Part shown: piece by piece, positions 8,665 through 42,624 of the stretch | Layout: every line of letters starts with the position of its first letter | Numbering within the stretch: the first letter of the stretch is position 1 | Origin: Phocaeicola dorei | GTDB taxonomy: Bacteria; Bacteroidota; Bacteroidia; Bacteroidales; Bacteroidaceae | DNA: 64,000 nt | Direction of reading: 5' to 3' | Assembly: GCF_013009555.1 (NCBI RefSeq) | Contig: NZ_CP046176.1 | Span: forward strand, 2,387,501 to 2,451,500 | The notes under the pieces: model-generated | Database searches by the model: none | Told to the model about the DNA's origin: nothing | Seen by the model: only the letters and a program-made list of their open reading frames with translations | Translations under genes and position numbers: made by a program

Positions 8665-9153
8665 TTGAAGCAAACAACAAATGTTTGGCTACATTTGTTT
8701 GCTATATATAGTTACATACGTATGGAATGTTTGTACTAATATGAGTGCTCTTTTTTTATTTTTTCATAAAGTAGAAAATGATGTTAATTCCGTTTTTATA
8801 TCCTGAACTATTTTTTTAATGCTTTGTTTCTCAGTATATGACATGGGTTAGAGTTGGTTGTATGCCGAATTGCCAGTTTATGAAAAATGGGGTATATGGG
8901 GTTCGGATTGTTGTAACTGATTAAAACCGCATTGTTTTGAGATAGTAAAATATCAGGATTGTTTCATTATTAGAATTTATAGCCATGAAAAGTTTAAGTT
9001 TTGATTTGCGGGCCAGACTGGTAGTCAGTCCTGTCATCAGGGCAATAGCTTGTTTATTTTCAAACTCCCCCGGACGGATAAAGTGATGATATATCAATTT
9101 CTATATTTACATGTAAATTCTAAACCGAGTGTATAACTTAAAAAAATCAGCCT
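8665..9153. other. Intergenic region between divergent genes
   Basis: No gene is supported here. It holds an imperfect inverted repeat at 8670-8702 (GCAAACAACAAATGT / ACATTTGTTTGC) that includes a plus-strand TACATTTG (8690-8697). It also holds a perfect 14-bp palindrome ATTTACATGTAAAT at 9105-9118, 36 bp before the GlsB-like gene, which could be an operator for the stress cluster. Confidence 0.45.
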
Positions 9154-9411
9154 ATGTATTTTCTATGGTACATTATTATCGGAATTCTTGCCGGATTCGT
9201 TGCTGGCAAATTTATGCGGGGCGGCGGCTTTGGCCTGTTTACTAATCTGCTGGTAGGTGTTGTCGGCGGTGTTTTGGGTGGATGGGTGTTCGGTCTGCTG
9301 GGAATCGCAACGACAGGTCTGTTGGGCAGTCTGATAACTTCAATTGTAGGAGCTGTCGTTTTGTTGTGGATTGTTTCATTGTTTAATAACAAAAAGAGAA
9401 TTGACCTTTAA
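9154..9411 (+). CDS. GlsB/YeaQ/YmgE-family stress membrane protein
   Basis: The 85-residue, very hydrophobic protein has three predicted membrane segments and the glycine-rich pattern of transglycosylase-associated/GlsB proteins (IIIGILAGFVAGKFMRGGGFG, LLVGVVGGVLGGWVFGLLG). Relatives are induced by general or envelope stress. It is the first gene of a run of short genes up to 11836 on the same strand. Confidence 0.85.
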   Translation: MYFLWYIIIGILAGFVAGKFMRGGGFGLFTNLLVGVVGGVLGGWVFGLLGIATTGLLGSLITSIVGAVVLLWIVSLFNNKKRIDL

Positions 9412-9441
9412 TTATTTTAACCATTTAAAAACAACTTGATT

Positions 9442-9738
9442 ATGGAAAATAGAAATTCTAGTTTATGGATCGGTCTGGGAGTAGGTTCGGTCATCGGTGC
9501 TTTGGCTTACCGTTTTTCACGTACTTCAAAAGCCAAGAAACTGAAGGAAAAAGTATGTGACACCTTTCATAAGATAACCGGCCAGGCGGAAGACATGTTG
9601 GATGAAGCCAAAGAAAAAGCGGTGGATGCTGGAAAGACCGTAGCGGATAAGATGGCCGACAAGGCATTCGGCCTTGCTGAGAAAACAGACGATTTTAAGA
9701 ACAAAATGCATGCAATGGCTTCCGAAGCTAAGAAATAA
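9442..9738 (+). CDS. YtxH-like protein
   Basis: The start is taken as MENRNSS at 9442 rather than the upstream TTG. The 98 or so residues begin with a short glycine-rich membrane segment (WIGLGVGSVIGALAYRFS). A charged helical tail follows (KLKEKVCDTFHKITGQAEDMLDEAKEKA...). This is the layout of YtxH/general-stress proteins. It lies 30 nt downstream of the GlsB-like gene. Confidence 0.75.
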   Translation: MENRNSSLWIGLGVGSVIGALAYRFSRTSKAKKLKEKVCDTFHKITGQAEDMLDEAKEKAVDAGKTVADKMADKAFGLAEKTDDFKNKMHAMASEAKK

Positions 9739-9774
9739 ATCGGAACAGATAACTTGCTAATAACTCATACGCTT

Positions 9775-10071
9775 ATGAAATGGAAGGAACATTTGAAACG
9801 TCAATTGCCGTCCAATGGCAGATGGGAAAATTATGAACAACTGTACCGGATGTGCCTGTTGGCATACGCTGAAGGCTGTAACGAGGAGAAAAAGAAAGCT
9901 CTCGAGGCATACAGGCTTCGTTGTGGCAGATTGTTTGGAAACAGGTGCATGCCGTCTGCCGGCAGCAGGGCGGATCAAAAAAAGATATGTGATGCAGACT
10001 GTTCCTACATAAGGAAGTATGAATTTGAGTTGTATAAACTGGGCGGGTGTATGGAAGACTCACCTGAATAA
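9775..10071 (+). CDS. Hypothetical protein, cysteine-containing
   Basis: The protein has 98 residues from the ATG at 9775 (MKWKEHLKRQLPSNGRWENYEQLYRMCLL). It is basic, with scattered cysteines, and shows no signal peptide or membrane segment. I do not recognise the family. It sits 36 nt after the YtxH-like gene and 32 nt before the catalase gene, so it is probably part of the same stress operon. Confidence 0.6.
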   Translation: MKWKEHLKRQLPSNGRWENYEQLYRMCLLAYAEGCNEEKKKALEAYRLRCGRLFGNRCMPSAGSRADQKKICDADCSYIRKYEFELYKLGGCMEDSPE

Positions 10072-10103
10072 ACCTGAATTATTGACTTTAAATTGAAAAG
10101 ATT

Positions 10104-11036
10104 ATGTTTTATCATGTAAAAGATTTGCAGTTCAACGCCCGGGTTTCACAACCCGATCCGCGTTTTGCACGTGTGATGCTTGAAGCATTCGGCGGTGCGA
10201 ATGGAGAATTGAAATCCGCCTTGCAATATTTTGTGCAGGCTTTCAGTTGTCACAATCCATTCCCTGATAAATATGATATGTTGATGGATATTGCCACAGA
10301 AGAGTTCGGACATCTGGAGATTGTAGGGGCCACGATTCAGATGCTTTTGGGACCGGTGAATGGAGAAATGAAGAATGCGCTTGAAGATACGCCGCTCCGC
10401 ACGATGATGAGCGGTAAGTCTGCTAAAGAGGACCTGATCCATCAGGCATTCACCAATCCACAATTTTTGGTAGGAGCCCCCGGCAGTCCGGCTTTGACAG
10501 ACAGTAACGGAAATCCTTGGTGTGCCACCTATGTGTCTGCTACGGCAGAATTGACGGTGGATCTTCGTTCCAACATGGCAGGAGAGGCACGCGCCAAAAT
10601 AGGCTATGAAAATCTTCTCCAGTTGACGGACGATCCTTTGGTAAAGGAAACGCTTGGTTTTCTCATGACTCGTGAAGTGACACATTACCAGCAGTTTGAG
10701 GCTGCTTTGGAAACAATTCAGCCCAATTTCCCGCCTGGAGTATTTCAAACATCTCCCAAATACAGCAATTTATATTTTGATCTGTCGAAAGGCGATGACG
10801 CTCGTGGACCTTGGAATGAAGGGGAGAGCACGCAGCTAAAGGAACAGTGGCAATATATAGAACAACCACTTGAAGAAGTGAGAAGCACGGATGGATTGCT
10901 GGATCGAAAACCGGAAGGTACCGACCGGTCGGAAAAAGAGATTGCCAGAAAAGAAGCACAATTGTCCAAGGAGCGTAGCGGGCAGGTGCTGGCGTCTACT
11001 CCCAAGAAGGAGATGTCTTGGTGCAAGTATCAGTGA
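10104..11036 (+). CDS. Manganese catalase
   Basis: The 310 residues match the non-haem dimanganese catalases (MFYHVKDLQFNARVSQPDPRFARVMLEAFGGANGELKSA starts as in KatN-type enzymes; long form shortened here to key residues). Likely metal ligands are Glu35 (GANGELKSA), Glu67 and His70 (ATEEFGHLE), and a second pair further on (GEARAKIGYENL, TREVTHYQQFE). It converts hydrogen peroxide to water and oxygen in the cytoplasm. The last 60 residues are charged and variable. Its place among envelope-stress genes fits a role in surviving oxidative stress. Confidence 0.95.
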   Translation: MFYHVKDLQFNARVSQPDPRFARVMLEAFGGANGELKSALQYFVQAFSCHNPFPDKYDMLMDIATEEFGHLEIVGATIQMLLGPVNGEMKNALEDTPLRTMMSGKSAKEDLIHQAFTNPQFLVGAPGSPALTDSNGNPWCATYVSATAELTVDLRSNMAGEARAKIGYENLLQLTDDPLVKETLGFLMTREVTHYQQFEAALETIQPNFPPGVFQTSPKYSNLYFDLSKGDDARGPWNEGESTQLKEQWQYIEQPLEEVRSTDGLLDRKPEGTDRSEKEIARKEAQLSKERSGQVLASTPKKEMSWCKYQ

Positions 11037-11094
11037 TTTGAAAAGAACATCGGTTTAAATCCGTTGTAATTATTAACCATAAACCATTTTAATT

Positions 11095-11205
11095 ATGACC
11101 AAGAAAACAGAAAAGAAACAGGAAGAGGCAAAGAGCACAAAAAAGAGTGCCCATGCCCAAGAATGTAAGTCTTCTGCCTCATGCAAGAAAGCAGAGAAGA
11201 AGTAA
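11095..11205 (+). CDS. Short lysine-rich peptide
   Basis: The 36-codon frame starts MTKKTEKKQEEAKSTKKS and ends CKKAEKK. It is nearly half lysine and glutamate, lies 58 nt after the catalase gene, and is followed directly by a terminator. Similar small lysine-rich frames follow stress genes in Bacteroides, but the function is unknown. Confidence 0.5.
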   Translation: MTKKTEKKQEEAKSTKKSAHAQECKSSASCKKAEKK

Positions 11206-11928: not shown

Positions 11929-13152
11929 TTACCAATATTTTTCGATTCTTTCGTAGCCGAAAATACCGCTGCGTTCATCTTTCATACCTTGTAGCTGACG
12001 GCAGATTATTTGTGCTCCGATCATGCTGAAAGTAATTCCGTTTCCCCCATATCCCAAATCGAAAAACATTCGTTCCTTGTCAGGCCAGTTGCCGATGAAG
12101 GGTAGTCCGTCCTTGGTGGTACTAAATGTGCCACACCATACCATTTCCGTTTCGAAAGGGAGGTCGGGGAATAGTTTTCTGACCTTCCTTTCCAAGATAC
12201 GGGTTTTCTTTCTGAGTAATGAATCCCGGCGCTGCGGGTCACTGAACTTTTCGTCCTCACCACCTACGATGATCCGGTTTTTATCGGTTGTGCGGATGTA
12301 TAGATACGGATCGGCTGTTTCCCAAATCAGGCAATGTGTCGGCCACAGGTGTTCGGAAGCTACCGGATGCGATACGAGTGCATAGGTAGAGGTCAGATCC
12401 ATGATTTTCTGAGGAAGGAATTGTCCGGCCTCAAATCCCGTGGCTATGATTACATATCCGCATTTAATTTTATGTCCTCTGTCTGTTGTCATGATACAGC
12501 CGTCAGATGTTTCTATACACTCTTTTATTGAGGTATGGGTAAAAACTTTCAGTCCGCTTTCCTTTATATGGTAAGCTAACAGTCCGGTTGCCGCCCTATA
12601 AGCATCCATTTGTGCGGATGCCTCATTTATCAGGGCATTGCCGGGTGTCTTTACCTTATATTCCTCTCTAATTTTCTTCTTCTCGAGCAGATTGACCGGC
12701 AACTTATGTTTTTGCCGTATTTCATGTTCTTGTTCCAAAAGTTTGTTATCCGCCGCACTACTGGCATAAAAGAGGCTGGGCAGTTGTTCGAAACCGGCAT
12801 TGACTCCCGTTTCTTCCAGTACTCTTTTTATATCAGAAATGGATTGCAGGCAGGCATGGTAAGCCGTCGCAGCATTTTCCTCGCCGATGATTTTTGCCAT
12901 CCGACAAAGAGGAACGTCAATTTCATATTGCAGCAGTGCGGTGCTTGCTGCGGAACTTCCGGTTGCAATGCTGCGTTTGTCAACTATGCAGCATTTTATT
13001 CCGGCATGGCACAATTCGTGTGCCATCAAGGCTCCCGTTATGCCGGAACCTACAATGACGACATCTGTCGACAGATCCTTTTCCAAAGGATGGAAATAGT
13101 CCCATAGGGAATTTCTGATGATCCAATAGGGTAATCCTGAGTGTAAGTCCAT
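11929..13152 (-). CDS. FAD-dependent oxidoreductase (DAO family)
   Basis: The 407 residues have an N-terminal dinucleotide-binding fold (VVIVGSGITGALMAHEL, GxGxxG at about residues 35-40), the ATGSSAAST segment typical of glycine/D-amino acid oxidase-like enzymes, and a C-terminal FAD-contact region (FDLGYGGNGITFSMIGAQI). Such enzymes oxidise amines or amino acids; the substrate here cannot be read. No Rieske domain follows, unlike some relatives. It stands alone on the minus strand, about 100 bp upstream of the OmpA gene's stop. Confidence 0.85.
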   Translation of the reverse strand: MDLHSGLPYWIIRNSLWDYFHPLEKDLSTDVVIVGSGITGALMAHELCHAGIKCCIVDKRSIATGSSAASTALLQYEIDVPLCRMAKIIGEENAATAYHACLQSISDIKRVLEETGVNAGFEQLPSLFYASSAADNKLLEQEHEIRQKHKLPVNLLEKKKIREEYKVKTPGNALINEASAQMDAYRAATGLLAYHIKESGLKVFTHTSIKECIETSDGCIMTTDRGHKIKCGYVIIATGFEAGQFLPQKIMDLTSTYALVSHPVASEHLWPTHCLIWETADPYLYIRTTDKNRIIVGGEDEKFSDPQRRDSLLRKKTRILERKVRKLFPDLPFETEMVWCGTFSTTKDGLPFIGNWPDKERMFFDLGYGGNGITFSMIGAQIICRQLQGMKDERSGIFGYERIEKYW

Positions 13153-13260
13153 AATATTTTGTTATTATCCCCTCACTTCCTGCTGAAAAACGGGAAAATG
13201 AGGGGGATGAAAATAGAAAAGTTATCTTATTAGAATTTATTTTCCACTCGTATTTGAAGG

Positions 13261-19979: not shown

Positions 19980-20511
19980 ATTATTTTACATATTCAAAAA
20001 CGTTTGCAAATTTATAAAATATTAGTTAAACCCCAACCTGGTAATCCACTTTATTTTATCAAAGACCGTTTCATCCATTTGACAATCATGGACTTCAGGC
20101 TGGTATTTGCCGGATGTGTCACGATTTGTAGGAAGAATAGCGCTTAAGCAACTAACAGCAGAATGTAAAAATAGACGCGGTTACCAAGTTATTACTTCAA
20201 TTTTTGTCTTTTTTTCAAACCTCCTATGTCTAAGGAGATTATAAAAGTTTTCTAGAATAAAAAAGATTGATAATTCCACTGCTCGCACAACAGAAACATA
20301 TGCGAATATAAATGAAGTGACAATTTACAATTCCATATCCAAGACAAAATTCAGGGAACAGGAAAAGGTTGAACGAAGGATAACCAGAAGTTTTACAGAA
20401 GGAAACAAAGAGAGCACTGCCGGAAATCTCTGTTCCTGACAATGTTAGAAATATTTGTAACAATTATAAGTCACCAATAATTCCGGTATAACCGATTATC
20501 TGAACCGCTGT
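19980..20511. other. Intergenic debris
   Basis: There is no supported gene. The stretch is AT-rich, with short broken frames such as one near 20265-20430 that reads like a decayed coding remnant (ARTTETYANINEVTIYNS). It ends at the pseudogene starting near 20470. Confidence 0.4.
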
Positions 20512-29628: not shown

Positions 29629-30151
29629 AAGACGATAACAGGCCCCATTCTTCCTAAAGAAAAAAGATAAGACATGATAGTCAATGTACCGATTTACAGG
29701 AGAACCGTATAGAAAGATTTCAAGATCTTCTTTACGCTCCTTGTAATAAATTTGGCTGTTAGTATTGATGTTTGGAATAGTGCGGTTTATGATAATGACA
29801 GCCGGTATGTGCAATGTGAACAAGCTGGAATGCCTTTTTCTGAAGGATTCCGGCTTGTTTATTACATGGCTGAAAAAACAAGACAAATAAGAGGGATGTG
29901 TCCATAGTGTTCCTGGAACACCCGGTATTTGGGTAGAACTCCGGTAGAAAATGTTTTCTCCACCCTTTTGAAGGAGAAAAAGTATGGGCAGACGGTCTTG
30001 CAATCGCTCCGTTCCGGTGTTTTATCTTGAGTTTTGTTATGTTTTTTCTATTTTCTACCATTGTTCTACCAGTAGGGCGGGGAAAGTAATGATATCACAC
30101 TTTTATCAAGGAATTACATATAGAATGCAGGGGTATATTGGTCAGATTTAG
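29629..30151. other. Intergenic region without supported gene
   Basis: The stretch holds only short frames without recognisable motifs. It ends at the Fic promoter. Confidence 0.4.
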
Positions 30152-30159
30152 TATCTTTG
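30152..30159 (+). promoter_or_regulatory. -7 element of the Fic gene
   Basis: TATCTTTG matches TAnnTTTG exactly and lies 17 nt before the Fic start codon. A clear -33 TTTG is not visible. Confidence 0.5.
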
Positions 30160-30176
30160 CAAAAAATGGTACTGAT

Positions 30177-31022
30177 ATGGAGGACAAGTTGATTTCCCGA
30201 TATGATATTTTAGTGAACCGGTACAAGGAACTTGTATCTGAGAAGCTGAGCAGGAAAGATTTTATAGAATACAATGAAATTCTATTCTCGGCGCATAGCT
30301 GTGCTATAGAGGGGAACAGTTTTTCAGTGGACGAGACCCGCACCTTGAAAGAAAAAGGGCTGGGCATGATCCCCAAAGGCAAGACCTTGCTGGAGGCATT
30401 TGAAATCCTGGATCATTTCCAGGCTTATGAATATCTTCTGAAGAATTTGGACAGGCCGCTGACCGAGGAACTCCTGAAGGAAACCCACCGGCTGCTGACG
30501 GAACATACCCTCTCTTACAAGACCCAATACGATGAAATACCGTCCAACCCGGGAGAATATACAACAGTGGACATGTGTGCCGGTGATACGATATTTGGGG
30601 ACCATGAGCAGCTGATAAAGCAGGTCCCCCGCCTGTTACAAAGCACCCAGCAGGTCCTGGACTCCGGGAAGATCCATCCGATGATCATCGCGGCAAGATT
30701 TCATGGATTTTATGAATATCTGCATCCCTTCCGGGACGGAAACGGTCGTCTGGGACGTCTGATGTCCAATTTTATATTGCTCAAAAAAGAACAGCCGCTG
30801 CTGATAATCCCCGGTTCGCAGAGAGAGGAATATATCACCGCCTTAAAATATATCAAAAAAGAGCGTACAGATGAATTTCTGATAGATTTTTTCTTCCGGA
30901 CATCCATAAAACGGATGGAACAGGAAATAGAGGAAAAAAAGAATCTCACGGAGAATTTTATCAGGGGGATGGAATTTGTTAGAAATGTAAAATCATCCAA
31001 TGATGACATTTCAGAAATCTAA
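30177..31022 (+). CDS. Fic-family protein with N-terminal inhibitory motif
   Basis: The start is the ATG at 30177 (MEDKLISRYDILVNRY). The 281 residues contain the complete Fic active site HPFRDGNGRLGR, which transfers AMP or another nucleotide part to a target hydroxyl. The N-terminal segment SCAIEGN fits the (S/T)xxxE(G/N) inhibitory motif of class II Fic proteins, so it is expected to self-inhibit. The target is unknown. It stands alone on the plus strand, next to the putative invertible segment. Confidence 0.9.
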   Translation: MEDKLISRYDILVNRYKELVSEKLSRKDFIEYNEILFSAHSCAIEGNSFSVDETRTLKEKGLGMIPKGKTLLEAFEILDHFQAYEYLLKNLDRPLTEELLKETHRLLTEHTLSYKTQYDEIPSNPGEYTTVDMCAGDTIFGDHEQLIKQVPRLLQSTQQVLDSGKIHPMIIAARFHGFYEYLHPFRDGNGRLGRLMSNFILLKKEQPLLIIPGSQREEYITALKYIKKERTDEFLIDFFFRTSIKRMEQEIEEKKNLTENFIRGMEFVRNVKSSNDDISEI

Positions 31023-31441
31023 TATTACATTCTGACAGTCCGAACAGTACTTTGCAGGCGAACTTTAAACAATCTGTTACGATTATAAATGTCTCTTTCA
31101 AAGATGAAGTTTTAATGGGACAATTAACCAGATCTGTTTCTGTTACCTCAGGTCATTCAGCGACTTACACTGTTTATGGTGTTGAAATCACAGAACGGGA
31201 AGATGATAGAGGAAATTACGACTCTTGGGAGGAAAATTATACCTTTGCAGTCACATCGGGATCTCCGGCATCACGATTGGATAGTTATGACAGATATAAC
31301 GGTGAGGTGTCTGAGAGCATGACCAGCAAAGAAAAATCATTCACTTTGGTTGTGGATGGTGTCACTGTTTGCTCCAATGAACCTATTTCAAATGTTGGCA
31401 AAGTTGATAAGGTAATTGGAAACTATAGGTATATTTTTTGA
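31019..31441 (+). pseudogene. Silent C-terminal cassette of a surface protein
   Basis: The open frame has no sensible start codon; an internal TTG at 31052 is the only early candidate. It opens with SDSPNSTLQANFKQSV, and the expressed surface gene on the opposite strand has SSNSTLQANFSKAG at its repeat boundary. The DNA CGAACAGTACTTTGCAGGCG(AACTTT) is identical over 26 bp in both and read in the same codon phase. The remaining 125 codons encode an alternative beta-rich C-terminus (VTSGHSATYTVYGVEITERE, SFTLVVDGVTVCSNEP). Inversion between the two 26-bp sites would attach it to the surface protein. Confidence 0.6.
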
Positions 31442-31573
31442 TTTAATTTCGCATTACAGATGAGGTTATGTCAGTGTTTTGACACCTCATCTTTCTCTGC
31501 CAAACTATTGGATACTTAAAATAGATTTTCACAATGTACTGGCAGTTATGAACGGCAACATAAAAATTAAAAA

Positions 31574-31606
31574 GAGCAACTGTTCATCTCGGACAGTTGC
31601 TCCTGT
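31574..31606 (+). terminator. Terminator after the silent cassette
   Basis: GAGCAACTGT and ACAGTTGCTC form a 10-bp perfect stem with a 9-nt loop. It would terminate whichever C-terminal cassette lies in this orientation. Confidence 0.7.
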
Positions 31607-31744
31607 AAAAACGGTTCAATATTAGTAAAAAACGACAATCTTTATGAATGAAATTATTTATAAAGACCCTGTATCTTTTGATAAGAACTGTTCTCTTCTT
31701 ATGAGGGCAAATTCAGTTCTTTATCAAGAAAGACGCAAAATATA

Positions 31745-32050
31745 TTATTTCAGTATTTCACCTTTCTCATTGAAGAACACCGTACTTTCAGCTCCCTCCT
31801 TGTCTGTCAGAACAACCTGATAGGTCTTGCTGCCATCCTCTGCCGCTTCCACCGCCGCTTCCTTGACGGTTGATTCCGCAAAATTTTTGGCGATTGCTTC
31901 CGTTACCGCTGCCGGAAGGTCTTTCACTTCAATAGGGGTGAAGTCATTTACTGCCATGACTGTTTCAACACCTGAAGTCAAATTTTCGGCAAATGCCACT
32001 GTTGTTCCTAATCCCATTACCAATGCTACTGCAACAAAAAATTTTTTCAT
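31745..32050 (-). CDS. Small secreted PepSY-like protein
   Basis: The 101 residues have a signal peptide (MKKFFVAVALVMGLGTTVAFA). One domain follows (VKDLPAAVTEAIAKNFAESTVKEAA, YQVVLTDKEGAESTVFFNEKGEILK), resembling the putative beta-lactamase-inhibitor-like PepSY family. It would be periplasmic or exported. It lies inside the putative invertible segment. Confidence 0.75.
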   Translation of the reverse strand: MKKFFVAVALVMGLGTTVAFAENLTSGVETVMAVNDFTPIEVKDLPAAVTEAIAKNFAESTVKEAAVEAAEDGSKTYQVVLTDKEGAESTVFFNEKGEILK

Positions 32051-32328
32051 AATCTTATATTTTTAATGGTTATTGTTTTACGATAATGATAAGGCAATTC
32101 CCATGCCAAAAGAATATTTATTCTGATTATCAGTTAATTGTTATTTTTTTATTATGTAAAAAATGGAAATAATCCTCATATAGTGTGGTCTGATGTAGAA
32201 TGTTTCCACACTTATAAAAATAGGCAGGAATTCTGCCTATTTTGTGCGTAAAACCAAAATCTGTTGCACATTAACTTCTGTTACAAGTTCTTTTTTATTT
32301 TGTATGACAAGATAAAGGCTATTATAAC

Positions 32329-32366
32329 AAGAGGCTGTCAAGTCATTTTTTTAAGACAGCCCTTGT
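32329..32366 (-). terminator. Terminator of the variable surface gene
   Basis: GGGCTGTC and GACAGCCTC (minus strand) form a stem around an A/T-rich loop. It lies right after the stop of the lipoprotein gene at 32370. Confidence 0.6.
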
Positions 32367-32369
32367 ATT

Positions 32370-33641
32370 TTATCTGATAGTGGACATGAATACAATGTTA
32401 ATAGTTATATCCTTTGTCGCTGTAAATGAATATGAACCGGCTGATGTCTGGGAGTATTCCCCAAGATCGTCCAAAGCCTGCCATCCGGTAGTAAAGAAAC
32501 CTCTCAGATAGTTATATCTCCAGCGGTCACCTTCTCCCGGCACGGCATAATCCGCACCATCCGCATATATTGTTACCCGGTCTCCATATGAGAACTCACG
32601 GGTTTGCTGACCGGAACTCAGACCGGTAGCAGAAAAGCCAATTCTGAAATCACCGTGCGTATACAAGGAGAAAGAATTGTTACTCCACATGCCAGTCTGT
32701 ATAGTCACCTTTATAGGATTGTCCGCTTTGAAATCGTATACGAATCTGCTTCCATCAGGATAACGGCTGTAATCATTGTACGTAAATAAATATTGACCAT
32801 ATTGTCCGGAGGGTATCCCGTTGCCATTCACATACCATTCATCCTCTCCATATTTCCAACCGGATTCCGGCTCTGGAGATATCAGGTAACCACCTCGTTC
32901 CAAGTTTTCATCATCCGGTGAAAGATTCAATACTATTTCTGAAGCAGATGGCAGCAATGTGGTTTCACCACGTTCATCAAAGACATCCAGTTTGCCTCTT
33001 CCTGTCCGGATGGAGAAATAGAACGTTTTACCGGCTTTTGAAAAGTTCGCCTGCAAAGTACTGTTCGAACTTTGCAACTGCACAGTGGTACTGGCTGAGG
33101 AGGCATTCATAATTTTTGCATCTCCTTTAGTCACAGTCCATCCGGAAAATGTGTATCCGGATTTTGCAACAGCGGTGATGGGGATATTGGTTTTTACTTT
33201 GTATGTTCCCCCTCCGGTAACAGTTCCTCCGGAGGTCGGATTGGCAGTCAGGGTCAAAGTACGTTTCTTTTCCTTGAACTTGCACTTGAATTTATGATCC
33301 TTGCCATTCAGAAAAACTTGATATGATACAGAACTTCCACTGCCTGTATAATTGTACTTTTGGGGTTCATCTGACGGTCCCCCGTAGAAATAGTCTATCT
33401 CATATCCGTCAGAGGCTTCAGCACCTACCGTGGGTCTTTCTTTACCATCATAAAGTCCCTCTCCATAAGCGGTACCACCGATAAACGATACGGTACGTGA
33501 GTCCGCATCCTCTTCTCCGTCAACCTCGATAGTCACCGCGGTCTTTCCGGTTGTGAGCTCTTTTTCAATTTCTTCACTGCATGAGCAGCCTAAGAAGATG
33601 GTTGCCAGCAGCACAATGTAATGTAAATGATTTGTTTTCAT
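32370..33641 (-). CDS. Surface lipoprotein with InlB/Listeria-Bacteroides-type repeat
   Basis: The start is the ATG at 33641, with a lipoprotein signal (MKTNHLHYIVLLATIFLGCSC). The N-terminal half has small beta domains (TAVTIEVDGEEDADSRTVSF) and one Listeria-Bacteroides-type repeat (LTANPTSGGTVTGGGTYKVK, GYTFSGWTVTKGD, STLQANF). The C-terminal half, about residues 200-423, is a different beta-rich region (YFSIRTGRGKLDVF, DDLGEYSQTSAGSYSFTATKD). The switch between halves is exactly where the 26-bp inverted repeat lies, so the C-terminus may be exchangeable. The promoter carries the 21-bp operator shared with the ArdC operon. Confidence 0.8.
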   Translation of the reverse strand: MKTNHLHYIVLLATIFLGCSCSEEIEKELTTGKTAVTIEVDGEEDADSRTVSFIGGTAYGEGLYDGKERPTVGAEASDGYEIDYFYGGPSDEPQKYNYTGSGSSVSYQVFLNGKDHKFKCKFKEKKRTLTLTANPTSGGTVTGGGTYKVKTNIPITAVAKSGYTFSGWTVTKGDAKIMNASSASTTVQLQSSNSTLQANFSKAGKTFYFSIRTGRGKLDVFDERGETTLLPSASEIVLNLSPDDENLERGGYLISPEPESGWKYGEDEWYVNGNGIPSGQYGQYLFTYNDYSRYPDGSRFVYDFKADNPIKVTIQTGMWSNNSFSLYTHGDFRIGFSATGLSSGQQTREFSYGDRVTIYADGADYAVPGEGDRWRYNYLRGFFTTGWQALDDLGEYSQTSAGSYSFTATKDITINIVFMSTIR

Positions 33642-33669: not shown

Positions 33670-33707
33670 CAAATGTAAGTGGGAAGCAGCACAACCTTTT
33701 TGTGCTG
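33670..33707 (-). promoter_or_regulatory. Promoter with 21-bp operator palindrome, copy 2
   Basis: The -7 box TACATTTG (33670-33677, minus strand) is preceded, 9 bp upstream, by the same palindrome CAGCACAA-AAAGG-TTGTGCTG (33687-33707) as before the ArdC operon. The palindrome has no T tract and in copy 1 no gene ends near it, so it is more likely an operator than a terminator. Confidence 0.65.
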
Positions 33708-33714
33708 CCCTTCA

Positions 33715-33945
33715 CTAAATTTTAATTTTCAGTTGGATATCAAAAGATTTCTTGAAATAATATGTATTTCGTTCATTGTCATATTCAATCTCTGCACCCA
33801 TGGCCCGGAGCTCTAAGAAGTAATTAATGATTGTATTGCGATGTACGCCCATTTCCTTCGCTATTTTTGCGGCACTTCCTGTATGTTCTTTTTTCAGCAG
33901 ACGGGTCAGTGTCTGTAATCTTTCCATGTAGTCCAGTATTCTCAT
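33715..33945 (-). CDS. Small HTH DNA-binding protein
   Basis: The 76 residues contain a winged-helix-type HTH (LQTLTRLLKKEHTGSAAKIAKEMGVHRNTIINYFLELRAMGAEIEY in pieces: TGSAAKIAKEMGVHRNTII). It overlaps the M23 gene by 4 nt, ending the tra operon, and its stop lies 8 bp from operator copy 2. It is a natural candidate for the regulator of the shared palindrome, though this is inference. Confidence 0.8.
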   Translation of the reverse strand: MRILDYMERLQTLTRLLKKEHTGSAAKIAKEMGVHRNTIINYFLELRAMGAEIEYDNERNTYYFKKSFDIQLKIKI

Positions 33946-34493
33946 AATCCTCTTCTTTTTCTGATGTATGGCCTGACCGGCCTTCCGTACTTTCTCACCT
34001 CATAATGCAGATGGTTTCCCGTGCTTTTTCCGCTTGATCCGATGAATCCGATCACTTTGCCACTCCTGACCTCTTCACCTTCCGGAACATAACAGGCGGA
34101 CAAGTGCCCGTACAGGGTCACAAAACCATAGGCATGGCGTATCATCACACAGTATCCATATCCTCCCTTTCTTCCTGAGTATATGACTTTTCCATCAGCT
34201 GCGGCATGCACGGTCGATGCAAGTTCCGCCGCAATATCCACTCCTGAATGGAACCTGCGCTGTCCGGTAACCGGGTCGCTCCTCCATCCGTAGGCGGAAC
34301 TGATACGGTGGAACCGGTGTACAGGGGGATGTACCGGTATCCTGTATTCCAGATGATGCCTCTCCACGATGTCCATGATCTCCCCGATGCGCTCAAGACT
34401 GGAACACCGGGAGAGTGCGTCCTCCAATATGGCCCTTTCCTTATCAGGTACCGGACAGAAGAGGCATAGGAACAGAACTAGTTTCGTTATCAT
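33942..34493 (-). CDS. M23-family peptidoglycan peptidase
   Basis: The 183 residues have a signal-like N-terminus (MITKLVLFLCLFCPVP) and a LytM/M23 domain with the zinc ligands HSGVD and HLHYE (RRFHSGVDIAAEL, STGNHLHYEV). It probably opens the cell wall for the transfer apparatus. CTnDOT-type elements use a lysozyme in this role, as in the right-hand element at 61381. It lies 10 nt downstream of traN. Confidence 0.9.
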   Translation of the reverse strand: MITKLVLFLCLFCPVPDKERAILEDALSRCSSLERIGEIMDIVERHHLEYRIPVHPPVHRFHRISSAYGWRSDPVTGQRRFHSGVDIAAELASTVHAAADGKVIYSGRKGGYGYCVMIRHAYGFVTLYGHLSACYVPEGEEVRSGKVIGFIGSSGKSTGNHLHYEVRKYGRPVRPYIRKRRGL

Positions 34494-34503
34494 GTGGTAT
34501 TCT

Positions 34504-35628
34504 TTATGGTTTTCCTACAATCTCCGGGAACAGTATCTCCGCATTGATCAGCTGTTTGTTCTTCAATTTGTAATAGAAATGTCTTCCCCCGTTTCTCTCC
34601 TGTATCTCTATGATGAGCACCTTCTTGTCCGGTATGGTGAATTTCGGAAGGGCGACCGTAAAGTCACATGAGGAAAGCGCAGCCACCTCCTCCGGACGGT
34701 TGAAAGAGAAGAGGGGCTGCTGCTCCAGCTGCTGGACGGCGGTCTTTTTCCGTTTTTTCGCATCCTGTATATAAAAACGGATGAAGTCTATGGTATAGCC
34801 GATCTGGGAACGGTTGTGCAGCCCGAAGCGGAACAGCAGGATATCATTGTCCACAAAGATATTGGTCACGCAGAATCTCATGCCGGCCACCTCGTCCCTG
34901 ATATTGGTCAGCAGCTTCGGCCTCCGTGATATCTCTTTTTCAAGCAGTGCTTTCTGCCGGGTATTCCGCTCTCTTCCCTCCAGTATGGCCACCTGCTTCT
35001 TTTTGGTGTCCTGTTTGTCCACAATGAAGGAAAATCTCTCACATCCGGGCGCATACCGCAGGTCAAACGTATAGAACCTGCCGCTTTCGGTGATGGCTGT
35101 AAGGTTGGTCTGCAGGGCAAACGGCGACACGGCCCTGAGTGCGACAATATTGTTCACATTCTCCGCTTTCTCCACCTGTACGGTGGTGTTTCCGAAATCG
35201 ACATACACGATTTTTTCCGGATAGATCACATGGGTCAGTTTCTCGTCAGAAACCGGAAGAACCGCCGTTTCCGGCATGGTACCGCCCTCCTTGTAGACAG
35301 CCTGCGCTCCCTCGTCGAAGGATATGCAATAGGTGTAATACCTGCTGTCCTCCGTAACAACCGACAGGTTGGTCTCTCCTTTGAAATCCCTTACCGTTGA
35401 TTTCAGCCGGATGACGGACGGACATACCTGTATGACTTCCCCTATGATGTTCTCATCCCCCATGTTCAGGTATTTCACGGGAGTGGGGAATATCATATGG
35501 AGCGTCTTCTCATAACCGATCTTCAGGTTTCTGCACTCCAGCTCGTCAATACGGGGCTGCTGGGCTCTTCCTGATAAAAAAGCAAACAGGAGAAGTATCC
35601 CTGTGATGTAAATTCTGTTTTGTCTCAT
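34504..35628 (-). CDS. traN: Conjugative transposon protein TraN with duplicated N-terminal domain
   Basis: The 374 residues start with a signal peptide (MRQNRIYITGILLLFAFLSGRAQ). TraN has a VirB9-like N-terminal module of the form THxIFP...YVDLG...NVIRVKSV...ETNMSVITESGxFYTF. Here the module occurs twice in tandem: LHMIFPTPVKYLNMGDENII...ETNLSVVTEDSRYYTY, then THVIYPEKIVYVDFGNTTVQ...QTNLTAITESGRFYTF. The C-terminal TraN domain follows (LPKFTIPDKKVLIIEIQERNGGRH). The other TraN at 58386 has one copy. It would be an outer-membrane-linked part of the transfer channel. Confidence 0.9.
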   Translation of the reverse strand: MRQNRIYITGILLLFAFLSGRAQQPRIDELECRNLKIGYEKTLHMIFPTPVKYLNMGDENIIGEVIQVCPSVIRLKSTVRDFKGETNLSVVTEDSRYYTYCISFDEGAQAVYKEGGTMPETAVLPVSDEKLTHVIYPEKIVYVDFGNTTVQVEKAENVNNIVALRAVSPFALQTNLTAITESGRFYTFDLRYAPGCERFSFIVDKQDTKKKQVAILEGRERNTRQKALLEKEISRRPKLLTNIRDEVAGMRFCVTNIFVDNDILLFRFGLHNRSQIGYTIDFIRFYIQDAKKRKKTAVQQLEQQPLFSFNRPEEVAALSSCDFTVALPKFTIPDKKVLIIEIQERNGGRHFYYKLKNKQLINAEILFPEIVGKP

Positions 35629-39040: not shown

Positions 39041-39586
39041 CTATTCCGTTACAAGTCCCAAATTCCGTCTGATGGTACGCGTATGTGACATGATCTGTCT
39101 GATGGTGCCCAGTGAAGCCTCCTGGCGACGGACTTCCTGAAGACATCCGTCGAGCTGCTCCATCCGTTCGCTGTCGTTCATTTTCAGGTCACTGCTGAGT
39201 ATATCCCCGGTCAGGGAGATAATGGCGGCGTTGTTCGCCACCACGTCCTGCACGGCCGAAGTGATGCCCGGCAGCCCCTTCATGTCCATCTTCTCCGCCT
39301 CTTCCAGCGTCCTGAGGCAGTTGCTGTTCAACCGGTTCTGCCGGTCTATCAGGTCCGTGAACATCCGTGCGCGTCTGACGGTGGCGGACACCTTCTGGAC
39401 ATAGTCCAGGGCGGTCTGGAGCCTGTTCACCTGTTCCACCGTCTGCTTCACCGTACTGGCCGTATTGGCGGCATTGATGATTCCCTGTGCCGTATTGCCG
39501 GGGTCGGTGACCACCCACTGGGCTCCCGCCGTCACGCAATGCAGCGACATTCCTGTAAAAAAGAAAAAAATTGAAAGCAATCTCAT
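39041..39586 (-). CDS. TraI-like protein (DUF4141), copy 2
   Basis: The 181 residues have a signal peptide (MRLLSIFFFFTGMSLHCVTAGA) and a helical domain (VNRLQTALDYVQKVSATVRR, NAAIISLTGDILSSDLKMND, IRRNLGLVTE). It is a paralogue of the gene just upstream, at 39611. The central 210 bp (39222-39431) are identical to 39792-40001, whereas the two ends differ. DUF4141 proteins are VirB5/TraI-like periplasmic parts of the transfer machine. Confidence 0.85.
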   Translation of the reverse strand: MRLLSIFFFFTGMSLHCVTAGAQWVVTDPGNTAQGIINAANTASTVKQTVEQVNRLQTALDYVQKVSATVRRARMFTDLIDRQNRLNSNCLRTLEEAEKMDMKGLPGITSAVQDVVANNAAIISLTGDILSSDLKMNDSERMEQLDGCLQEVRRQEASLGTIRQIMSHTRTIRRNLGLVTE

Positions 39587-40001
39587 GATATTCCTCCTTT
39601 GTTCTGATTCCTATTTTGTTACAAGTCCCAAATTCCGTCTGATTGTCCGTGTACGGGAGATGGTCTGACGGATGGCGGACAGTCCCGCCTCCTGCTCCCT
39701 CAGCTTTTCCAGACACTTCCTCAGATGCTTTATCCGTCCGCTGTCGTTCATTTTCAGGTCACTGCCGAGTATGTCCATGGTCAGGGAGATGATGGCGGCG
39801 TTGTTCGCCACCACGTCCTGCACGGCCGAAGTGATGCCCGGCAGCCCCTTCATGTCCATCTTCTCCGCCTCTTCCAGCGTCCTGAGGCAGTTGCTGTTCA
39901 ACCGGTTCTGCCGGTCTATCAGGTCCGTGAACATCCGTGCGCGTCTGACGGTGGCGGACACCTTCTGGACATAGTCCAGGGCGGTCTGGAGCCTGTTCAC
40001 C
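39222..40001. repeat. Identical 210-bp stretches in the tandem traI-like genes
   Basis: 39222-39431 and 39792-40001 are identical base for base, offset 570 bp, while the sequence on either side differs. The sharp edges and identical third codon positions suggest recent gene conversion. Confidence 0.85.
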
Positions 40002-40183
40002 GATTCCGTCACCTGTTTCACCGTTGCTGCGGTATTTCCCGCGGTCAGTGTGCTCTGGGCGGTGTTGAGAGGGTCGGTAATCGCCGCCTGTGCGGCAGCC
40101 TTCAAGGTCATTCCGCCGCACAGGAGCAGAAGCAGAAGCGGCCTGTATCCCTTTAATCCTTTTTCCATACGGTCTCCTTTCAT
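39611..40183 (-). CDS. traI: TraI-like protein (DUF4141), copy 1
   Basis: The 190 residues have a signal peptide (KGYRPLLLLLLCGGMTLKAAA) and the same helical domain as the next gene. The start overlaps the traG stop by 4 nt. The two copies may be parts of one hetero-oligomer or may reflect a tandem duplication kept similar by gene conversion. An alternative start (MEKGL) lies 12 nt downstream. Confidence 0.85.
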   Translation of the reverse strand: MKGDRMEKGLKGYRPLLLLLLCGGMTLKAAAQAAITDPLNTAQSTLTAGNTAATVKQVTESVNRLQTALDYVQKVSATVRRARMFTDLIDRQNRLNSNCLRTLEEAEKMDMKGLPGITSAVQDVVANNAAIISLTMDILGSDLKMNDSGRIKHLRKCLEKLREQEAGLSAIRQTISRTRTIRRNLGLVTK

Positions 40184-42624
40184 TTCCTGTCCTTTGACGG
40201 GTGTCTCTCCATGTATCTGCCTATCGCTTCCTCCATCGGCATGGTCCTGGAATAGCCGTCAATCTCAGCCCATGTCTCCCCGTCGGTCTGGAAGGCGAGG
40301 AACTTCTCCCGGCTCAGTTCGTTGCGCACCACCACCGCATACCTCCCCTGGCCGCCGGTGAAGCGGATGAAGCACTCGGAATGCGGACGCTCCCCGGAAA
40401 AGTCGTTGCGGATGGACCGCATCATGTTGCACTGGGCGGGGTCGCCCCCCATCTCGAACCTTTTCTCCACGGCCCTGTATACCACATCCGTTGTGGGAAG
40501 GATGTACAGCAGCTGGGTATTGGTGATCATGCCTTTGGTAAATTCGTCATCGGGAAGCTGGTCGGGACTCTGGACGATGGTCATCACCGCACCGTTCTCC
40601 TTGCGTATCTTCTGGTAGCAGAAGGCGACTGCGGAATGTATGCTGATATCCTCGCCTCTGGACTTCATCTGCGCCGTTTCGGCATACTCGTCAAAAATGA
40701 TCATTCCCCTTCTGGTCCGGTCGGAAAGGATCTTGTCATGAATCACGTCGAAGATCAGGGCCATGACCAGGTCGGAGAGGAACTTGTCCTGTTTGATCTG
40801 CGTCAGCTCGAACACGACCAGCCGCCTGTTCCCGAAATCGGGCACTCCTTCGGTCCTGCATACATTGGCATACCGTTCACCGGGAAGGAACTCGCTGCAT
40901 ATGAGGCGGAAGGAGGACAGGTCAAAATAATTGGGGTCTACGTCCTTCCGCCGGCAAATATCCTCATAATGCTCCGTCACGTGGCGGTAGAAAGAGGGAA
41001 AGGAATGGGGTGGCAGGCAGGTGGCGTAATAATCCTGGATGAATTTTGTGAGGGCTACGGACTGCTCCTCCTCGTCCTTCCCGAACATGCGGCGCCAGAA
41101 ACGCTGCACGATACCCGATAGCACCTCTATCTTGTTGTTGTCAAGGGAACAGCCCTCCAGATCGAAGGGATTCAGACCCAGCGGTGTCTCCCCGTCATAG
41201 TCCACATGCAGCGAGATTTCAGGATAAAGCTTGCAGAGCTGTCCGAAAGAGTACCCGAACTCCACCACCACCACGATATAGCCCTGCTCGATGAGCTGCT
41301 GCACGATATTCAGTGTCAGCACGGACTTGCCGCCGCCGGTGGATGCCACCACGATGCCGTTGCGGGCCGGTATGCGTTTTTTCTTCGCGTCCCAGATATC
41401 CTTTTTCAAAGGTATCTGATAAATACGGTCATTGAAATACACCCCTTCCTCATCCGGGGTGAATGTCGTGTAGTTGATGAACAGACAGAGCGCGAGGGAA
41501 AGCGGGGTCAGGAACAGGAAGCCGCTGTCAAGCCCTTTCTCCTGTCCGGGAACCGAAGCCAGGTATATGTTGGCCAGATGCTCGTAGGACGGTATATAGA
41601 ATTTGAAGTCCGAGACGGTCAGGTATTCCCGCAGTTTCTTCTCGGCCCGGTCCAGCAGTTCCGGGCTGTCATCCCATATCATGACGGAAAAATTGGCACG
41701 GCAGAGGAGCTGCCTCTCCTCCATGATCTCCTTCTGCATGTTCTCGAGCTCGTCCGCCTTCGGCTCCAGCATGGCCCTGTCCCATCCCTTGTTGGTGCGG
41801 TAGACCGCCACACGGCGGGAGAACTCTTCATAAAGTTTCTCCGAGCCCTCGAAATAGAGGATCTGGTTGACCGCATGGTTGCAGTGCAGGTGCACGCCCA
41901 GGCCTTCCAGTTCCGCCATGTACAGGCTGCATCCGGACACGGGCAGTGTGGTGTCCTCCACATCGCTTCTGACGGTGCGGTCAGGCAGATAGTCACCGTC
42001 ACAGACGGTATAGCAACGCGCTTTCTCCCGGTCGACGGTGATCTCTCCGGAGAAATGGATGTCACGGTCGCAGTCAGCCCGGGGGAAGAAGTTGATGTAC
42101 CGGATGACATACTCCCTCAGGCTGGCGGCGGCCATCCTTTCCAGACGGGTGTCCCTGATACTGTTTATCACACCAATGGCGGAGTTCACCCCCTCCAGAA
42201 ATTCGGTGAGTTTCTCCCGGTCGGACACATGCAGCCTCTCCCGGTAGGAGAACGGGTTGGCATTGTACGAGGCTGCCAGGGAGGACAGGCCGGACAGGGT
42301 GAATATCAGAAGACAGTCATGTTCCAGATACTCACGGCCGGAGAAATGCCTCTGTTCCGCCTTGTCGATGAAGCTGTCCCCTTCCAGCTCATGAACGTAC
42401 TCCCTTTTAAGGAACACGTCCTGCTTGTGCACGAAGCTGCCGGAGGGCAGGTGTTTGAACGCCTGGTAGAGACGCGCGTTGCGCTCCTCCAGGTCGGTAC
42501 GGTGCAGGCTGTAACATTCCGGATTGTACATGCGGAACGCTACAGACACGCAGCCGTTTCTGGTAAGGATGACACCGTATTCGTCATTGATGACATCCAG
42601 TATGGAATATCCTTCGTTTGCCAT
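40180..42624 (-). CDS. traG: Conjugation ATPase TraG (VirB4 family)
   Basis: The 814-residue length is normal for TraG. It has Walker A (ASTGGGKSVLTLNI, near residue 430) and Walker B (MIIFDEYAE, near residue 645) and the VirB4-type motifs (GLNPFDLEGC, AVMTIVQSPDQL, YILPTTD). It powers assembly of the transfer channel in the inner membrane and cytoplasm. A short plus-strand gene lies between it and traF, so the tra operon here is interrupted. Confidence 0.95.
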   Translation of the reverse strand: MANEGYSILDVINDEYGVILTRNGCVSVAFRMYNPECYSLHRTDLEERNARLYQAFKHLPSGSFVHKQDVFLKREYVHELEGDSFIDKAEQRHFSGREYLEHDCLLIFTLSGLSSLAASYNANPFSYRERLHVSDREKLTEFLEGVNSAIGVINSIRDTRLERMAAASLREYVIRYINFFPRADCDRDIHFSGEITVDREKARCYTVCDGDYLPDRTVRSDVEDTTLPVSGCSLYMAELEGLGVHLHCNHAVNQILYFEGSEKLYEEFSRRVAVYRTNKGWDRAMLEPKADELENMQKEIMEERQLLCRANFSVMIWDDSPELLDRAEKKLREYLTVSDFKFYIPSYEHLANIYLASVPGQEKGLDSGFLFLTPLSLALCLFINYTTFTPDEEGVYFNDRIYQIPLKKDIWDAKKKRIPARNGIVVASTGGGKSVLTLNIVQQLIEQGYIVVVVEFGYSFGQLCKLYPEISLHVDYDGETPLGLNPFDLEGCSLDNNKIEVLSGIVQRFWRRMFGKDEEEQSVALTKFIQDYYATCLPPHSFPSFYRHVTEHYEDICRRKDVDPNYFDLSSFRLICSEFLPGERYANVCRTEGVPDFGNRRLVVFELTQIKQDKFLSDLVMALIFDVIHDKILSDRTRRGMIIFDEYAETAQMKSRGEDISIHSAVAFCYQKIRKENGAVMTIVQSPDQLPDDEFTKGMITNTQLLYILPTTDVVYRAVEKRFEMGGDPAQCNMMRSIRNDFSGERPHSECFIRFTGGQGRYAVVVRNELSREKFLAFQTDGETWAEIDGYSRTMPMEEAIGRYMERHPSKDRK

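Follow-up and report, generated by a model that had tools for sequence, protein, structure and literature searches.

Does a surface lipoprotein whose gene stands last in a conjugative transfer operon of Phocaeicola dorei change its C-terminal half by DNA inversion? The gene in question lies on a 64,000 nucleotide stretch of contig NZ_CP046176.1 (positions 2,387,501 to 2,451,500; hereafter the window, in whose numbering positions are given unless another sequence is named). It encodes a protein of 423 amino acids (33641-32370, minus strand) and contains the expressed copy of a 26 bp site (33042-33067, minus strand), in the codons for NSTLQANF. The silent copy (31041-31066, plus strand) is its perfect reverse complement and heads a start-less reading frame 18 bp past the stop codon of a Fic-domain gene. 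Together they delimit a proposed invertible segment of 2,027 bp (31041-33067), defined by the site pair and by an inverted junction in Phocaeicola vulgatus ATCC 8482 (NC_009614; L008). We consider the locus to be a shufflon-type C-terminal switch of a surface lipoprotein, at the transfer-operon end of a Bacteroidales conjugative element, with a probability of about 0.85; this figure applies to the type of locus and says nothing of activity today. A first-pass annotation of the window had already proposed a C-terminus-switching invertible segment, and both the ATCC 8482 junction and natural proteins with swapped ends support it.

The constant N-terminal part of the lipoprotein (33068-33641, minus strand) comprises a signal and lipobox (..IFLGCSC, by reading of the sequence), beta domains and a divergent InlB B-repeat (PF18998). 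This repeat was the only one of five Pfam families matched at E ≤ 0.1 to score over the cut-off, and no pilin domain was among the five. Past the site follows C-terminus A (32370-33041, minus strand), which is expressed in the window and silent in ATCC 8482. C-terminus B (31067-31441, plus strand) has 124 residues, or 132 codons with the site counted, and is silent in the window: the short part of its frame upstream of the site has no start codon, and the frame ends at 31441. The first-pass annotation had reported both the exact 26 bp inverted pair and the common NSTLQANF phase of the lipoprotein and the start-less frame, and we confirmed both. It had also placed a terminator after B; a simple scan did not find one, although a hairpin, ATGAGGT...ACCTCAT, lies at 31460-31490. 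In the predicted structure, residues 31-203 of the lipoprotein are mostly confident. Because the InlB B-repeat and the confident part of the structure both end at the site, the swap would fall at a domain edge.

The site pair is the sole exact 26 bp inverted repeat in the window. When up to three mismatches were tolerated the same two matches were the only ones recovered, against 0.00 expected from 100 shuffles. NSTLQANF has 9216 possible codings, so a common protein sequence alone does not explain the identity of the site DNA. Beyond the 26 identical bp, the match extends only to 43 nt at 84% identity.

Read against the window, ATCC 8482 carries one of the two junctions that inversion would create. 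Collinearity with the window holds from 24728 through the whole silent site, after which the match crosses into the segment and runs in reverse, from 33071 to 31517. The resulting Fic-site-A junction agrees with the window at 895 of 900 bases on its Fic flank and at 898 of 901 on its A flank, whereas cassette B matches the ATCC 8482 sequence at 93 of 300 bases. C-terminus A is start-less there, and the stretch compared contains no lipoprotein N-terminus. ATCC 8482 also carries a related lipoprotein with a single site, for which no partner site was found.

The P. dorei genome, a single contig of 5.63 Mb, contains the element twice; the second copy, at ~5.09-5.14 Mb, likewise has the site pair. 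Its lipoprotein is 96% identical to that of the window, C-terminus A included, and a 1,137 bp stretch holding its Fic gene is 99.1% identical. Homology between the copies stops exactly at the silent site and resumes at window 31517. In between, the window carries B and the second copy carries a different silent cassette, C (216 codons). The B and C frames are intact, and the 26 bp sites are identical in both element copies. Homology is lost at the same base in three sequences (window 31517, L005 11709 and L008 11504), which may mark a second exchange point. This recurrent breakpoint (31517-31545, plus strand) begins with TAAAATAGATTTTCAC. As a separate observation, it adjoins the near-palindrome TAAAATAGATTTTC, beyond which the three sequences have three different neighbours.

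Natural proteins carry the constant part with different ends. Among the 34 proteins returned by a search with the first 200 residues of the lipoprotein, P0001, P0002 and P0005-P0007 have the N-terminal part in common. It is joined to A in P0001 (cluster of 1202 member sequences). In P0002 (335 member sequences), a 100% identical N-terminus is joined at NSTLQANF to C (98.6% identical). In P0006 (1068 member sequences) and P0007 it is joined to B, with N-termini 94% and 88% identical and B 97% and 100% identical, respectively, and P0008 (N-terminus 79% identical) has yet another end. Because P0002, P0006 and P0007 carry C or B, both silent cassettes are expressed elsewhere. The first-pass annotation had held that inversion would link the N-terminus in frame to the silent C-terminus, and had suggested a search of relatives for the alternative junction. 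Both junctions exist: Fic-A as DNA in ATCC 8482, and N-B in P0006 and P0007.

A second search, with the N-terminus of the lipoprotein of L035, an IMG/VR contig of 87.6 kb, found 141 proteins (120 of them listed). In the resulting collection of 150 proteins a site was recognised in 129 and none in 21. We analysed 126 proteins, leaving out the chimeras P0003, P0004 (which has no recognised site) and P0074 and one poor N-terminal match. They formed 39 N-terminal clusters at 90% identity and 28 C-terminal families (single linkage, E < 1e-3). The C-termini had no detectable similarity in 109 of the 168 pairs with N-termini at least 95% identical, and some similarity in the other 59. In those 109 pairs, the 20 residues that end at the site agreed at 19.1 positions on average, and the 20 that follow at only 1.8. 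Conversely, 113 of the 7554 pairs with N-termini less than 80% identical had C-termini more alike than their N-termini by more than 12 points; none involved a chimera, and in 13 of the 113 the C-termini were 100% identical with N-termini below 60%. On account of these pairs, C-terminal ends also seem to move between distant elements. The three chimeras, each a single-member cluster, are lipoproteins fused to TraG-type or fimbrillin pieces, and represent either assembly chimeras or ectopic recombination.

Larger, shufflon-like arrays occur in related elements. L035 has the gene order TraN-like, M23-like, HTH-like, lipoprotein (by reading), and because of its tra genes looks like a conjugative element and not a virus. 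Its array has one expressed C-terminus and three silent ones. All four are site-headed and in frame, and both orientations occur; two tyrosine recombinase genes are interspersed with the cassettes, and a Fic gene lies beyond the last site. Two of the silent cassettes have expressed counterparts, in P0038 (100% identical) and in P0036 (86%). Bacteroides ovatus plasmid NZ_CP041396 (L052) likewise has four site-headed C-termini, with a Fic gene inside the array, and both arrays include oppositely oriented cassettes. Start-less silent cassettes in frame with a site thus number one in the window, one in L005, three in L035 and three in L052. On the Bacteroides fragilis plasmid L053 the operon order is kept, but no site-like pair was detected among its 13 inverted repeats. 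In L031 and L032, too, the search (20 bp, seed 12) detected no inverted site pair near the related lipoproteins. A C-terminus-like frame at L035 14389-14826 lacks a recognised head site and is possibly a decayed cassette. In L032 (G068), two lipoprotein genes of the family with different ends form a direct tandem (8985-11188), flanked by two similar fimbrillin-like genes in the same orientation.

The L035 recombinases (9587-10567, 326 amino acids, and 12076-13239, 387 amino acids) are PF13102/PF00589 proteins, 82% identical to each other and the sole PF00589 matches on that contig. Enzymes of the tyrosine recombinase family have a catalytic HxxR. Since the 326 amino acid enzyme has HVAH where the longer one has HTGR, it may lack the catalytic arginine and is probably inactive. 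NZ_CP041396 has three integrase matches, all outside the cassette array. In the window, the only recombinase trace found is a remnant of a tyrosine recombinase C-terminus (20245-20400, plus strand; 62-68% identity to the L035 enzymes over 44-53 residues), 10.6 kb from the cassettes. The whole genome has 40 integrase-domain matches (38 over the cut-off) and six resolvase-domain matches, none of them in the shared element part.

Comparison across systems indicates how the site is conserved. In an alignment of 13 copies from three systems, conservation runs from the C two bases before AAC through the core; this C is invariant in 13 of 13 copies and the left flank is unconserved. The 8 bp inverted arms described in the first-pass annotation are present on the expressed copy and only there, and as a general feature of the site they were rejected by the 13-copy comparison. 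Between L031 and L035, 23 of 24 site bases agree, compared with 68% for the coding DNA of the N-terminus, whose 194 other 8-codon segments included none as alike as the site. The L052 site also stood out, with 0 of 170 segments as alike in the comparison with L031 and 0 of 169 with L035.

In genome searches, the site 24-mer with up to two mismatches was found in two of 61 genus genomes and two of 399 family genomes; these are the same two, one being the P. dorei genome itself. Exact matches comprised one stretch among genome contigs (the own genome possibly left out) and none among viral contigs. A relaxed L035/L052-type pattern with one mismatch matched two of the 399 family genomes, at the second lipoprotein of ATCC 8482 and, outside any lipoprotein frame, in G005; the reversed pattern, used as a control, also matched once each in two genomes. 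The lipoprotein itself was found in eight of 399 family genomes at E ≤ 1e-8 (five via the repeat region only) and in four of 393 order genomes at E ≤ 1e-15 (three via the repeat region only). One plasmid record matched the window lipoprotein and 23 matched that of L035, 14 of the 20 listed via its C-terminal repeat.

We propose that the 26 bp NSTLQANF sites would be the target of a site-specific recombinase, most likely a tyrosine enzyme like those in L035. Inversion of 31041-33067 would put B in the place of A after the invariant start, signal and N-terminal domains, and the same event would leave A, start-less, behind the Fic gene. The recombinase may be supplied from elsewhere in the cell, and the variable half may recognise an outside target, such as a recipient cell, a neighbour or a host glycan. 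Several results weigh against this reading. A is the expressed C-terminus in both copies of this genome. The two alternative junctions come from different sequences and not from one culture: the ATCC 8482 locus is a truncated fragment that ends at 31517 and preserves one junction only, and the N-B junction is seen at the protein level only, with N-termini 88-94% identical. The window's own site is no better conserved than its surroundings, as segments at least as alike numbered 30 of 182 against L031, 30 of 182 against L035 and 29 of 167 against L052. PF00589 and PF00239 gave no match in the window or in the part common to both copies, in a search that did not cover other kinds of recombinase. 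The best long homologs of the L035 enzyme in the P. dorei genome are only 32-33% identical, and none at E ≤ 1e-60 was found in the 61 genus genomes, a search that had no positive control.

Some of these results would fit a locus in which an active shufflon ancestor lost its recombinase, A became fixed and the differences among strains are of old date, an outcome compatible with a shufflon history. The recombinase remnant at 20245-20400, the lack of integrase- or resolvase-domain matches in the shared element part, the A state of both copies and the unpartnered site in ATCC 8482 all point that way. The sites, however, are still identical and the B and C frames intact, B is the expressed end in P0006, a cluster with 1068 members, and the 40 integrase-domain matches elsewhere in the genome could include an enzyme acting in trans. 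We therefore regard a frozen locus as possible but rather doubtful, and lean towards flipping still taking place in this strain. It is much less probable that the C-termini were exchanged by homologous recombination or gene conversion between copies, with no dedicated recombinase, although long homology flanks the silent cassette on both sides in the two genome copies, these copies have different silent cassettes (B and C) despite sharing A, a combination that simple flipping does not yield, and the 113 pairs mentioned above fit such exchange. The ATCC 8482 junction requires inversion at the site, which is also where similarity breaks off and where the identity spans no more than 26 bp, not the long homologous tracts between silent copies and expressed gene that gene conversion would use. 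In addition, tyrosine recombinases are encoded in the L035 array, and cassettes point in opposite directions in both related arrays. Homologous exchange could supplement inversion without taking its place. One flip explains neither a shared A with differing B and C nor the break of three sequences at base 31517; these features require either deletions from a larger array in an ancestor or homologous exchange between the element copies.

The enzyme class also bears on the proposed switch. Hin-type sites are 26 bp long, as is the identity here, and have a two-fold symmetric 12-2-12 structure, which this site lacks (3 of 12 half-site positions match, by inspection). None of the six resolvase-domain matches in the genome falls in the shared element part and the L035 array carries tyrosine enzymes, so that a serine invertase of the Hin/Gin/Mpi kind is a very improbable agent, even though Mpi drives many inversions in B. 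fragilis (excerpt of PMC5903667). Least credible of all is chance, or conservation of a repeat motif at the protein level, with no recombination. The InlB B-repeat of the family does often end in an NSTITANF-like sequence, but the 9216 codings, the 0.00 expected matches, the inverted junction and the swapped proteins all speak against it. The first-pass annotation had named a protein-level repeat as the finding that would undo its proposal; this is contradicted by the break of DNA homology at the site, and also by the site conservation between L031 and L035, an excess that the window's own site does not have.

The genomic context is that of a conjugative element, as the first-pass annotation had assumed and as the DUF4138/TraN and TraG domains, ArdC and the second genome copy bear out. 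The lipoprotein gene directly follows the TraN-like, M23-like and HTH genes of the transfer region: a DUF4138/TraN-type conjugation protein (34504-35628, minus strand; domain match), an M23-type peptidase (33942-34493, minus strand; by reading and by position, the order being that of pBFO17_1) and, directly upstream of the lipoprotein, an HTH protein (33715-33945, minus strand; reading frame and Pfam scan). A TraG-type conjugation ATPase (40180-42624, minus strand) was also identified by its domain. Two tandem genes of the tra region at 39041-40183 (181 and 190 amino acids) have a nearly identical middle part and likely represent a recent duplication. The promoter-like sequence TACATTTG (33670-33677, minus strand), 28 nt before the ATG of the lipoprotein, fits TAnnTTTG, the -7 promoter motif of Bacteroides; such motifs are common, with 52 on both strands of the window.

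The Fic-domain gene bordering the segment (30138-31022, plus strand) was delimited by Pfam and reading frame and by comparison of the element copies. A Fic-domain gene lies at or in each of the three arrays (L052 17073-17882, L035 16222-16560 and the window), but orthology across them was rejected: the L035/L051 and L052 proteins are 67% identical, whereas the window protein aligns over only 45 residues at 33%, which by sequence places it in another subfamily. Inside the segment lies a gene for a PepSY-like small secreted protein (31745-32050, minus strand; Pfam match under the cut-off). The block containing it (31716-32216) is 91% identical to positions 1240-1741 of PQ571275.1, Bacteroides phage BS-TP2, beside an integrase gene, and has 60-80% identical relatives on 27 plasmids, 20 of them listed.

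By analogy with PilV of R64, the lipoprotein would most likely function in recipient or surface recognition; for the binding target of its variable half we obtained no supporting fold or sequence match. Conjugation is among the main routes by which genes spread in the gut, and we know of no counterpart of the PilV recipient-choice switch for Bacteroidales elements. One fixed half combines with 28 groups of swappable halves that have no detectable similarity to one another, beside transfer genes where the context is visible. This makes the lipoprotein family a testable candidate for partner choice, phage avoidance or host-surface variation by these elements, and assembled sequences of such loci may each capture just one of several states. 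Tentatively, a separate class of shufflon might exist on Bacteroidales conjugative elements, based on an InlB-repeat lipoprotein encoded last in the tra operon. The exchangeable tips of this protein would retarget mating or surface recognition among gut bacteria, much as the PilV tips of enterobacterial plasmids do. Cassettes of this class would circulate among distant elements, and some elements would be free of recombinase and switched by the enzymes of others in the cell.

Gene-altering and intragenic inversions have reportedly been catalogued across bacteria by Milman, Yelin and Kishony and by Chanin et al. (2024); judged by titles, the locus falls in that general class, in which inversion alters coding sequence. 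It belongs to the shufflon kind, in a form for which no description was found in titles and abstracts among the literature matches listed. Catalogues of invertons may include it, and Table S1 of PMC10939037 lists invertible regions, including those of P. dorei, among which it may be. As in the invertible capsule promoters of Bacteroidales (Mpi, Tsr), inverted repeats flank the segment, and the recombinases of those promoters may act from a distance (excerpts of PMC13114119 and PMC5903667). Here, however, each repeat reads in phase as part of a coding frame and the segment does not include the start of the lipoprotein gene, so that protein sequence and not promoter direction would change. The B. 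fragilis shufflons of SusC/SusD (Tsr0667) and type I restriction (region EE) genes are likewise Bacteroidales inversions that alter surface or restriction genes (excerpts of PMC11852207 and PMC5729914). As described there, alternative genes for outer membrane proteins are moved behind a promoter in the SusC/SusD systems, whereas the present switch would exchange a C-terminal domain within a single gene carried by a conjugative element.

The closest likeness is to the pilV shufflons of R64/IncI1 and IncI2 plasmids, which are worked by Rci. R64 is described as a shufflon plasmid with asymmetric sfx sites (excerpt of PMC11852207), which the one-sided conservation of our site resembles, and shufflon-driven variation of the PilV adhesin alters recipient affinity in the case of an IncI2 plasmid (PMC9045228). 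Both kinds are carried by conjugative elements, join a constant N-terminus to start-less C-terminal cassettes headed by short in-frame sites and, in L035, have tyrosine recombinases beside the cassettes, known here by their Pfam domains PF13102/PF00589 and not by comparison with Rci. They differ in that the protein is an InlB-repeat lipoprotein instead of the pilin PilV, the host order is Bacteroidales, and the window has a single silent cassette and no intact recombinase found in the element. We take the window to hold a two-cassette form of a Bacteroidales C-terminal shufflon, near which only the remnant of a recombinase was found.

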